This document shows positions 7,235 through 10,690 of a stretch of 34,833 bases of DNA, in pieces. The notes below the pieces were generated by a model. That model did not search any database. It worked only from the letters and a program-made list of their open reading frames with translations, and had not been told where the DNA came from. Position 1 is the first letter of the stretch, and the number at the start of each line of letters is the position of its first letter. The DNA is from Clostridia bacterium (GTDB lineage: Bacteria; Bacillota; Clostridia; Oscillospirales; Acutalibacteraceae), in NCBI GenBank assembly GCA_017454485.1, contig JAFTCX010000037.1, forward strand, positions 1-34,833, in the 5' to 3' direction. Position numbers and translations under genes: made by a program.

Positions 7235-8467
7235 ATGCAAATTAAATCAAACAAAATTTATATCGATTACTTAGATCATGTAATGAGTGGAAGCGTGAAT
7301 ATAAAAGATACTATTGATCGTTTGAAATTTGACTTACTACTCTTTTCGGAAGATGTATTATGCTTGTCAGTGCCTGCTTGTGTAAAGCTTGATTCGACAA
7401 CAGATATATTAATGCAACTTTTTCCGTTTTGGAAAAATGGAAAAATAAAACTTATTCTTGATGAAAAGCATAAAACAAATCCCTGGAATTATTTCAATAA
7501 TAGAAAAAGAGTTCTGGAAAAAGGGTTTTCCGAAGAAGAACTTAACAAGCATTTTGAATATATTGCCTATAACTCCTCTCATACAGATATATTTTATAAT
7601 ATTTATATTAAAGAAGTTTTACAGGCACCAAAAAAACTCTATATTGGGAAAATATACGATACTGACTATGTGTTTAGACAATCTGTTATCAACCAAATAA
7701 ATGATGAGAGCAATATAATTTGTTCAAAGCTTTCTGTAGGTGATGCTCTTCATTTAGGGAAAGTTTTTAATGAGTTGTTTTTTATAGCTGAAGATAGAAA
7801 ATCGTTATTTCAGAGAAGTTTGATAATAAATAAGTTGCAAAATGAGTGTAATATAAATTTATTTGAAATAAAAGTTATTTGCAGAATTTTAGATAGAGGT
7901 TTTGCATATGCAAATGGATTATCAAGTGATGCTGCACCGATATCGTTTATAACAAACAGATTAACCGGTAGATATTTTATTAATATAATTAAAACGACAG
8001 ATAAAGAATTATATTCCATGATTCATAATTTGAATTGGATAGCAACATATAGATTAAGCGAAAATGATACATGGCTTGATTTTATTGATCACTTAAATCA
8101 ATTGCTACTTATATACCAAGAAGCCAAAATGAATAGACATCAAGTTTTTTCTCCAATACTGTTGAACGGTAGCATAAGGGCATTTGATCTTATCAAGAGG
8201 CTATATGAGACTGCTGTTGAGGCTGTACAAGAAGAATTATTTAAATCTGGTGCAAGCCTTATTGACTTATTGAATATAAAAACCTATTCAGAAAAGGCTA
8301 TAGAAGATTTTGTAATTAATAGAATTGATTTAATAAACTTGATTAAGGAGATAGATGACCTGATTGCTGCCTTAAAAATTGTTATTAAAAGTCTAGAACG
8401 AAGATGTAAAAGCAGTACAATTGTTTTAAGAGAACAGGGCTTTTTTATTAATCTGTATCGGGAATGA
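7235..8467 (+). CDS. unrecognised 410-residue protein, first gene of AT-rich operon
   Basis: I do not recognise this family. The ATG follows a TGGAG site at a good distance. The first ~80 residues look like alternating beta strands (FDLLLFSEDVLCLSVPACV, GKIKLILDE); the rest is mainly helical, with a charged helix pair at about 345-400. No signal peptide, membrane segment, Walker or nuclease motif is evident. The gene is extremely AT-rich (about 30% GC in sampled rows) against roughly 60% to the right. Nine bases separate it from the HAD gene, which is followed by a P-loop ATPase, so the three are probably one transcript. The setting (mobile-element neighbour, foreign composition, ATPase partner) suggests a defence or element-maintenance role, but that is inference. 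Confidence 0.85.
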   Translation: MQIKSNKIYIDYLDHVMSGSVNIKDTIDRLKFDLLLFSEDVLCLSVPACVKLDSTTDILMQLFPFWKNGKIKLILDEKHKTNPWNYFNNRKRVLEKGFSEEELNKHFEYIAYNSSHTDIFYNIYIKEVLQAPKKLYIGKIYDTDYVFRQSVINQINDESNIICSKLSVGDALHLGKVFNELFFIAEDRKSLFQRSLIINKLQNECNINLFEIKVICRILDRGFAYANGLSSDAAPISFITNRLTGRYFINIIKTTDKELYSMIHNLNWIATYRLSENDTWLDFIDHLNQLLLIYQEAKMNRHQVFSPILLNGSIRAFDLIKRLYETAVEAVQEELFKSGASLIDLLNIKTYSEKAIEDFVINRIDLINLIKEIDDLIAALKIVIKSLERRCKSSTIVLREQGFFINLYRE

Positions 8468-8476
8468 GGTGATACA

Positions 8477-9154
8477 ATGTATTCTATAATTCTGTTTGAC
8501 ATGGATGATACATTATTTGATTTTCAAAAAGCGCAAGAGGTAAGCATTAAGAATACTTTAATTAAGAATAATATTGTTTATTCTGATAGTATTTACGAGT
8601 GCTATAAAAAAATCAATCATAATTTATGGATTCAGTTTGATCAAGGGAAAATAACAAAGGATTATGTGCAAACAGAAAGGTTTTACCAACTTTCTAAAAG
8701 ATTAAACCAGGAATTTGATTGCGAAAGAATAAACTATGATTACCAAATAAACCTGGCAAAACAAACGTGTCTTATTCGTGATGCTAAAAAGATTTGTATT
8801 GAATTATCAAAGCGATATTCACTTTTTATAGCTACAAACGGAGTAGGATCAACACAAAAAAACCGTTTTTATAATTCTCAGATTTTTCCGTATTTTAAAG
8901 ATATTTTCATCTCTGAAGATATTGGCTTTTCAAAACCAAATATTGAATTCTTTAATGCAGTTTTTTTAAAAATAGATTATAGTAGTAAAAAAGATATCCT
9001 ATTGGTTGGCGATTCATTAACATCTGATATTTGCGGAGCAAATAAAGCAGGAATTGATTGTTGTTGGTATAACCCATATGGAGCAAACCCCACGAACAAA
9101 TATAGAATGACATACATGATTTCTGAATTGAGACAACTTTTAGCAATTTTATAA
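8477..9154 (+). CDS. HAD-family hydrolase, YjjG-like nucleotidase
   Basis: The 225-residue protein carries all four HAD motifs. Motif I is FDMDDT with nucleophile Asp8 and acid/base Asp10. Motif II is ATNG (Thr120). Motif III is the Lys153 of FSKPNIEFF. Motif IV is GDSLTSD (Asp179, Asp184). The helical cap after residue 15 is type C1, and length and motifs fit the YjjG/YfnB group. These enzymes dephosphorylate pyrimidine nucleoside monophosphates, including non-canonical ones. A GAGGTGAT site precedes the ATG. It lies between an unknown protein and a P-loop ATPase in an AT-rich operon. That is unusual for a housekeeping nucleotidase, so it may have been recruited to a nucleotide-directed function. 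The enzyme class is secure; the substrate is inferred. Confidence 0.88.
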   Translation: MYSIILFDMDDTLFDFQKAQEVSIKNTLIKNNIVYSDSIYECYKKINHNLWIQFDQGKITKDYVQTERFYQLSKRLNQEFDCERINYDYQINLAKQTCLIRDAKKICIELSKRYSLFIATNGVGSTQKNRFYNSQIFPYFKDIFISEDIGFSKPNIEFFNAVFLKIDYSSKKDILLVGDSLTSDICGANKAGIDCCWYNPYGANPTNKYRMTYMISELRQLLAIL

Positions 9155-9208
9155 TGAATAGTTCAAGTTTGTTCTTGTCATAGGTCTTTCAAAAAGCCTA
9201 AATAACTT

Positions 9209-10690
9209 ATGAATGGGATGAAAAAAATGAAATTTACTGAACAGAATATCAATAAGATGTTTGGCTGTGAGGCTGCTGAGGATGAAAAAGCAGATCGGCT
9301 AAAAGAATATTATTTCAAAAGTGATGTTTACAAAAAAATACATAATGATATGCCGCTAAGAATTATGGTTGGACATAAAGGTATCGGTAAATCGGCTACA
9401 TTCAAAGTTTCATTTTTAGAAAACAAAGAAAAGAGTAATGTTGTTGTATGGATAAAACCAGACGATATAATGGGAATCAGCCAAGCTGATGATAATTTTT
9501 TACAACAAATCAACACATGGAAAAAAGGTCTGTCCGAAATCATTGTCAAAAAAATACTAGAAAACCTAGAAATTGATTTCGATGACGCATCTGTAAAAAA
9601 AGTTGCTGGAGTGTCTGGCAGAATTATTGCGAAACTTTCAGAATTATTTAGGGAAAAAATAGATAATCAGGTTAGTATTGATTCTGCAAGTCAAATAATA
9701 ATAAACAAATTCCTTAGAAATAATATAGTATATGTGTATATTGACGATTTAGATAGAGGATGGAATGGATCTCAAAATGGCATTCAAAGAATCTCTACTC
9801 TGTTAAATGCTGCACGCGATTTGACTAGCAATAATGAAGGATTATGCATAAGAATAAGTTTGCGATCCGATGTTTATTTCCTCGTAAGAACATCTGATGA
9901 GTCAACAGATAAAATAGAAGGAAATGTGATTTGGTATAACTGGACGCAACATGAACTGCTAGTGATGCTTGCCAAAAGATTAAAAACTTTCAAGCATGAG
10001 AGGGTTGATGAACGGAAGCTTATAAAACAGCCACAATTTGAAATTGCAAAATGCTATGATGGAATTATTGAATCAACTTTTCACGGCAGAGGCATGTGGA
10101 GCAATGTTCCGACATATAAAGTGCTTGCTTCTATGATTAGAAGAAGACCACGCGATCTAGTAAAAATATGTTCAATGGCGGCTAGGACAGCATATGAACG
10201 AGAACATGAAACAATATTTACTGATGATTTCCTTGATAATTTCGATTTGTATTCTCAAGAAAGAATACAGGATACAATTAATGAATATCGCTCAGAGTTA
10301 CCAGACATTCAAAAGCTAATTATGGGTATGAAGCCTAGCAATCGTGAAAGAAAAACAAAAGATGAGTTTATATACTCAAGTGATGAATTGATAAAAAAAA
10401 TAAATATTATTATTGGAAATGCTCCTCTAAAATTTTCTAATGGGGTGATTGCAACGCCAGAAGAACTTGCAGCATTTTTATATAAGATCAATTTTATAGT
10501 TGCAAGGAAAAAAAGACAGGATAATAGTCAAATAATTGACAGAAAATACTTTGAAGACAATAAATATCTTTCTAATTCTTTTGTTGATTTTGGCTATCAA
10601 TGGGAAGTGCATCCAGCTTTCAGATGGGCGCTTTACCCAGATGGCGGAGATTTTTTATTCAATACATTATATATTGATGGAGATGTATAA
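9209..10690 (+). CDS. P-loop ATPase, Sll1717-like family
   Basis: The 493-residue protein has Walker A GHKGIGKSA at 55-63 and Walker B YVYIDDLDRGW at 175-185. The N-terminal MFGCEAAEDEKADRLKEYY block is typical of the Sll1717-type ATPases, which lie near KAP/STAND NTPases. The C-terminal half (RRPRDLVKICSMAAR, then a winged-helix-like stretch near 380-470) has no catalytic signature I know. The start is uncertain: ATG at 9209, 9218 or 9227 are possible, and the GGGATG before 9227 is the best ribosome-site match. There is no signal or membrane segment, so it is cytoplasmic. It is the last gene of the AT-rich operon, 54 bp after the HAD gene, and is followed by a strong terminator. Such ATPases often act as switches in antiphage systems; here that is inference. 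Confidence 0.85.
   Translation: MNGMKKMKFTEQNINKMFGCEAAEDEKADRLKEYYFKSDVYKKIHNDMPLRIMVGHKGIGKSATFKVSFLENKEKSNVVVWIKPDDIMGISQADDNFLQQINTWKKGLSEIIVKKILENLEIDFDDASVKKVAGVSGRIIAKLSELFREKIDNQVSIDSASQIIINKFLRNNIVYVYIDDLDRGWNGSQNGIQRISTLLNAARDLTSNNEGLCIRISLRSDVYFLVRTSDESTDKIEGNVIWYNWTQHELLVMLAKRLKTFKHERVDERKLIKQPQFEIAKCYDGIIESTFHGRGMWSNVPTYKVLASMIRRRPRDLVKICSMAARTAYEREHETIFTDDFLDNFDLYSQERIQDTINEYRSELPDIQKLIMGMKPSNRERKTKDEFIYSSDELIKKINIIIGNAPLKFSNGVIATPEELAAFLYKINFIVARKKRQDNSQIIDRKYFEDNKYLSNSFVDFGYQWEVHPAFRWALYPDGGDFLFNTLYIDGDV

Follow-up and report, generated by a model that had tools for sequence, protein, structure and literature searches.

An orphan protein paired with a diverged YjjG-type nucleotidase, and a neighboring Sll1717-family ATPase, near a MobV/ParB element of a Clostridia bacterium: two candidate cargo modules

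Organization of the Locus

The window studied here, i.e., the whole stretch of 34,833 nucleotides, is an entire contig (C5) from the genome of a gut bacterium; this genome, of 2.42 Mb, is assembled in 90 contigs and is 87% complete. The following features were identified in its left part:

1..627, minus strand, ParB-like (ParB_N) protein, truncated by the contig end (domain match)
652..1974, minus strand, Mob_Pre/MobV-type relaxase of a mobile element (Pfam; NCBIfam below cut-off)
2623-6633, minus strand, DUF6273 protein of 1336 aa, its N-terminus signal-peptide-like by eye
7235..8467, plus strand, gene 1, orphan 410-aa protein without significant family match
8477..9154, plus strand, gene 2, predicted YjjG/YfnB-type HAD pyrimidine nucleotidase (TIGR02254, HAD motifs, PDB relatives)
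9128..9155, plus strand, TTGAGA-16-TATAAT, promoter-like, at the 3' end of gene 2; may serve gene 3 as a promoter of its own (consensus match only)
9209..10690, plus strand, gene 3, Sll1717-family P-loop ATPase (NF047389; alignment; relatives without genes 1 and 2)
10762..10793, plus strand, intrinsic-terminator-like hairpin 3' of gene 3 (fold of 10740-10810 versus shuffles)
10973..14324, no strand assigned, flank common to the congener G1029 (84.7%), including the STAS-domain gene 11001-11297 (alignment)

An earlier note had described genes 1–3 as an AT-rich, co-oriented, and closely spaced operon ending at one strong terminator, beside a MobV/ParB mobile-element end. All three open reading frames are present on the plus strand, separated by gaps of 9 bp (genes 1 and 2) and 54 bp (genes 2 and 3), and this part of the description is confirmed. 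The same is true of base composition: the GC content is 0.288, 0.283, and 0.326 in genes 1, 2, and 3, respectively, versus 0.49–0.61 in 1-kb windows from 11 kb rightwards. By GC3, gene 3 is not separable from genes 1 and 2 (P = 0.53), and composition was therefore dropped as proof of a separate origin for gene 3. The 374 bp of AT-rich DNA upstream of gene 1 (6861–7234) contain only short broken frames in a six-frame reading.

The terminator also stands. The hairpin at 10762–10793 dominates the fold of 10740–10810 (z = −4.87, with 0 of 200 shuffles as good), and a simple terminator scan missed it. Near-copies (84–89%) of the hairpin region 10752–10799 occur elsewhere in the same genome, on contigs C6 and C81. 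The operon itself is more doubtful. Between genes 2 and 3 there is no strong hairpin (z = −1.31), hence read-through is possible, and co-orientation agrees with the claim; on the other hand, gene 3 is immediately preceded by a promoter-like site. This site (9128–9155) agrees with the sigma-70 consensus at 11 of 12 positions, and no other plus-strand site in 6860–10690 reaches 11/12; 0.19 such sites would be expected over that interval. As a class, promoter-like sites are not in excess, 24 being observed on both strands of 6500–11400 versus 23.4 in shuffles.

Mobile Context and Genomic Background

The MobV/ParB neighborhood holds in part: both genes are present on the minus strand, but they are not directly adjacent to gene 1, the DUF6273 gene being situated between. 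The relaxase scores 141.9 bits with Pfam Mob_Pre and 65.6 bits with NCBIfam MobV, the latter under the cut-off of 100. No left junction of the mobile element was found in the window, which starts inside ParB.

On the right side, the alignment of the window to the fetched part of G1029 extends from 10973 to 14324 only. In the congener, a tRNA-Leu is localized upstream of the shared flank, and a 203-aa ORF precedes the STAS-domain gene; the window has no such ORF at that place. A search for the upstream flank of G1029 in the genome under study yielded, apart from the shared part, short matches only. Of the 34 genus genomes searched, 33 lack gene 1, the exception being the genome under study itself. 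The presence of the AT-rich genes on the unshared side and of genus-type DNA on the other side of the same contig argues against a binning artifact. Thus, the mobile context holds, and the three genes were probably acquired horizontally.

Assignment of the Three Gene Products

The gene assignments of the earlier note (an unassigned protein, a HAD nucleotidase, and an Sll1717 ATPase) are borne out, as genes 2 and 3 pass curated cut-offs and gene 1 lacks a significant match. For gene 1, no significant match was observed in Pfam, PADLOC, NCBIfam, or PHROGs, the best being a PHROG at E = 0.031, and no enzymatic or toxin domain was detected in Pfam, PADLOC, or NCBIfam. A single relative was found, in an Oscillospiraceae MAG (locus L002), with 62% identity over 407 residues. 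In a scan of genome contigs, 72 stretches matched the pattern, and one locus proved to be this relative; none was found in viral contigs (three queries), plasmids, or phages. Larger genome sets, which overlap each other and the genus set, gave the same picture: the genome under study alone in 391 genomes of the class, and the same genome plus one match judged to be due to chance in both the order (394 genomes) and the phylum (398 genomes).

The order match (L003, E = 6.2e-4) lies inside a 742-aa topoisomerase-looking protein, and the phylum match (L009, E = 9.8e-4, and also E = 2.7e-4 in the gene-1 scan of fetched loci) involves the C-terminal part only and a 307-aa ORF. Two other candidates were likewise attributed to chance: phrog_11276, which matches the L002 relative of gene 1 (E = 0.0012) and has weak matches in 2 of 98 genomes, in frames longer than 1200 aa, and PDB entry 6cfw_K, matched by the gene-1 profile at E = 0.015. 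Structure prediction for gene 1, proposed in the earlier note, did produce AlphaFold models, but with a mean pLDDT of 42.2 for the whole protein and 40.9 for residues 1–140, the models are too poor to use, leaving a sensor role for gene 1 without structural support.

Gene 2 scores 207.1 bits with TIGR02254 (YjjG), a nucleotidase-family model of the equivalog type with a cut-off of 159.9, and its Pfam matches are to HAD-type families only. The motifs DMDDT (8), TNG (120), KP (153), and GDSLTSD (178), which we take to be HAD motifs I–IV, are intact, and the relatives in PDB are 3ed5 and 3i76 (YfnB). We predict that gene 2 encodes a YjjG-type nucleotidase of pyrimidine monophosphates. A nucleotidase scan of viral contigs gave no match.

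Gene 3 matches NF047389 (ATPase_Sll1717) over its full length with 227.4 bits versus a cut-off of 75 and is an ordinary member of this family, with no notable difference. It contains GHKGIGKS, presumably the Walker A motif, and VYVYIDDLDRGW, which we take to be Walker B-like; residues G58, G60, K61, and S62 are invariant in the seven rows of the alignment. The similarity of gene 3 to DS-41 (NF053860), an anti-phage system named in PMC13092281, is weak (35.1 bits, far under the cut-off of 370), and gene 3 is not a member. No paper on the Sll1717 ATPase by name, and no account of what this family does, was found in the literature searched.

Genes 1 and 2 as a Candidate Two-Gene Module

At L002, a HAD nucleotidase gene follows the gene-1 relative after 15 bp, in the same order as in the window, and its product is 54% identical to gene 2. 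The dN between the window and L002 is 0.285 for gene 1 and 0.373 for gene 2, and dS is saturated and not computable by NG86; these dN values together with the saturated dS indicate that both genes have been kept under selection as proteins. About 80 bp after the nucleotidase gene lies a hairpin (2428–2459) with a 10-bp stem followed by TTTTCT; the fold of 2350–2480 has z = −4.99, with 0 of 200 shuffles as good, and again the simple scan did not list the hairpin. After it, on the other strand, comes a gene of a Mutator-family transposase. The contig is only 4962 bp long.

In a tree of 32 rows, i.e., the pair, the second YjjG copy of the genome under study, and the best 29 of 214 from the order, the paired nucleotidases group together with 100/100 support on a stem of 0.75, with a bootstrap that is not fully settled. 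Any match to the YjjG nucleotidase was observed in 214 of 295 genomes of the order. A gene-1 relative is absent from 30 of 30 other YjjG loci (about 1.5 kb on each side for most), where upstream genes and neighbors are assorted, as judged by eye.

Genes 1 and 2 thus appear to constitute a rare two-gene module inherited as a unit. As there is one independent relative of gene 1, the co-inheritance of the pair rests on two loci.

The ATPase and Its Relatives

Six relatives of gene 3 were considered, all of which pass NF047389: one from a genome of the same family (G978, 49% identity) and those from Paracoccus pFER4 (39%), a Lactiplantibacillus plasmid (35%), the Pf phage PfAC09 (25%), Nostoc pNPM2 (24%), and plasmid F (22%). 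They represent the one other matching genome among 250 of the family, 4 of 119 plasmid records, and the one phage record; by design, mobile DNA is therefore overrepresented. In all six loci, spanning 7.6–19 kb, neither gene-1 nor YjjG frames were found at E up to 10; as a positive control, the nucleotidase profile found its two control loci. A separate gene-3 scan gave no match. In the genome carrying L002, no gene-3 match was found, one candidate having been scored with no positive control.

The co-occurrence of all three genes in other genomes, expected in the earlier note for a defense trio, was therefore not observed: L002 has genes 1 and 2 only, the gene-3 relatives lack both, and no genome with all three was found besides the one under study. 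Nor did its suggestion of an antiphage module gain from defense libraries, since genes 1 and 2 have no PADLOC match at E up to 1 (and their L002 relatives none up to 0.01), the best E for gene 3 is 0.0027, and a scan of five window proteins, those of genes 1–3 included, revealed no known defense gene.

The surroundings of the relatives are as follows. The G978 locus has a tRNA-like sequence of 58 nt (L072:12279-12336; 30.2 bits against a gathering score of 29), with ParA/ParB genes on one side and the ATPase gene on the other; ARAGORN lists no tRNA there, and it is perhaps a truncated tRNA and possibly an attachment site. The GC content of this ATPase gene is 0.38, and that of its neighbors is mostly 0.45–0.63. 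In pFER4, the ATPase gene is situated between two TniQ-domain genes (L012:3037-8473), as if it were cargo of a Tn7-like element. In PfAC09, the Sll1717-family ATPase (L015:5962-7464) is the product of ORF1, located terminally in the phage record; most accessory genes of Pf phages relate to anti-phage defense, according to PMC11878078. In plasmid F, a 698-aa hypothetical protein (L014:4468-6564; NC_002483 4303-6399) is an Sll1717-family ATPase at 291.9 bits; its C-terminal part is similar to the PADLOC candidate PDC-M36A (41.1 bits), and its gene adjoins a recombinase gene and a Tn3-like transposase gene.

Taken together, the pair without the ATPase at L002 and the ATPase relatives without the pair suggest a two-gene module and an independent ATPase module, gene 3 being probably the latter.

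Possible Functions and Alternative Explanations

Our tentative interpretation is that two neighboring but separate cargo modules lie side by side, next to or on the MobV/ParB element, and that the pair acts as a nucleotide-pool anti-phage switch. Module A would be a two-gene operon of the orphan 410-aa protein and the diverged YjjG-type nucleotidase, most likely serving as a nucleotide-pool conflict switch. We infer an anti-phage role for it, with gene 1 sensing infection or holding the nucleotidase in check; the released nucleotidase would dephosphorylate pyrimidine monophosphates (UMP, dUMP, dTMP, or modified ones), and phage replication would be starved. Module B would be the independent Sll1717-family ATPase, probably with its own promoter. 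The reading of the pair as a switch draws on the intact HAD motifs, the diverged paired clade, its rarity, the mobile context, and precedents. The housekeeping function ascribed to YjjG (PMC12715507) weighs against it.

Such precedents come from several sources. DS-9 (PMC13092281) is described as a metallophosphatase plus a HAD phosphatase; it is like our pair in having two genes with the HAD phosphatase second, but gene 1 has no Pfam match to a metallophosphatase up to E = 1. In CARF-HAD phosphatase effectors (PMC12715507), a HAD phosphatase acts on nucleotides in immunity; there, CARF is fused to HAD, whereas no CARF domain was detected in genes 1 and 2. Clover (PMC12265719), reported to sense dTTP, combines a dGTPase with a nucleotide-signal synthase. 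The likeness lies in a nucleotide-pool enzyme under a partner protein, with partner control only proposed for our pair; the enzyme of Clover is a dGTPase, that of the pair a HAD nucleotidase. Compared with YjjG/YfnB proteins of TIGR02254, which gene 2 resembles in score and motifs, it differs in its partnership with an orphan protein and in its place in a diverged clade of two members. Nucleotide-pool defense by the pair would thus be plausible by precedent, and we offer it as an unproven hypothesis.

The same components could be read the other way around, with the nucleotidase as a guard: gene 1 would make or channel a modified or toxic nucleotide, or be a toxin itself, and the HAD enzyme would remove the product, the two forming a toxin–antitoxin or a signal/off-switch pair. 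The gene order, in which the HAD gene follows the orphan after 9–15 bp, would suit this, as would the recognition of noncanonical nucleobase derivatives described for YjjG (PMC12715507). Against it, gene 1 has neither a detected enzymatic or toxin domain nor a usable fold, and we consider such an arrangement unlikely.

Similarly improbable, in our estimate, is a plain metabolic or detoxification cargo, i.e., a spare pyrimidine nucleotidase and an accessory protein with no phage role. The equivalog score of gene 2 is consistent with this, and a gene-2-like protein is found in 87 plasmid records, many of them annotated as YjjG. However, the genome under study has a second YjjG gene above the cut-off, on contig C45, which makes a plain metabolic need for gene 2 less likely, and both the divergence of the paired clade and the great rarity of gene 1 speak against it.

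A single three-component defense operon whose ATPase was lost in L002 seems very unlikely, for although co-orientation, the 54-bp gap without a strong terminator, the single hairpin after gene 3, the similar GC3, and the transposase gene following the L002 pair would fit, that pair is followed by a terminator-like hairpin of its own, situated before the transposase gene, its genome gave no gene-3 match, none of the six gene-3 relatives has genes 1 and 2, and a promoter-like site precedes gene 3.

Returning to the switch reading, we consider unlikely its boldest form, in which gene 1 would found a new class of infection sensors or nucleotide-signal proteins and directly control a repurposed house-cleaning pyrimidine nucleotidase, in a two-gene system unlike any described. 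No description of the gene 1–nucleotidase pair was recognized in the literature searched, a set outside which most subscription papers fall.

The apparent trio is better treated as two units, and the pair is a candidate addition to nucleotide-targeting conflict systems. If it defends, a housekeeping-type pyrimidine nucleotidase would have been recruited as an immune effector under an uncharacterized partner, and an orphan family would join nucleotide-pool immunity beside DS-9, CARF-HAD, and Clover.
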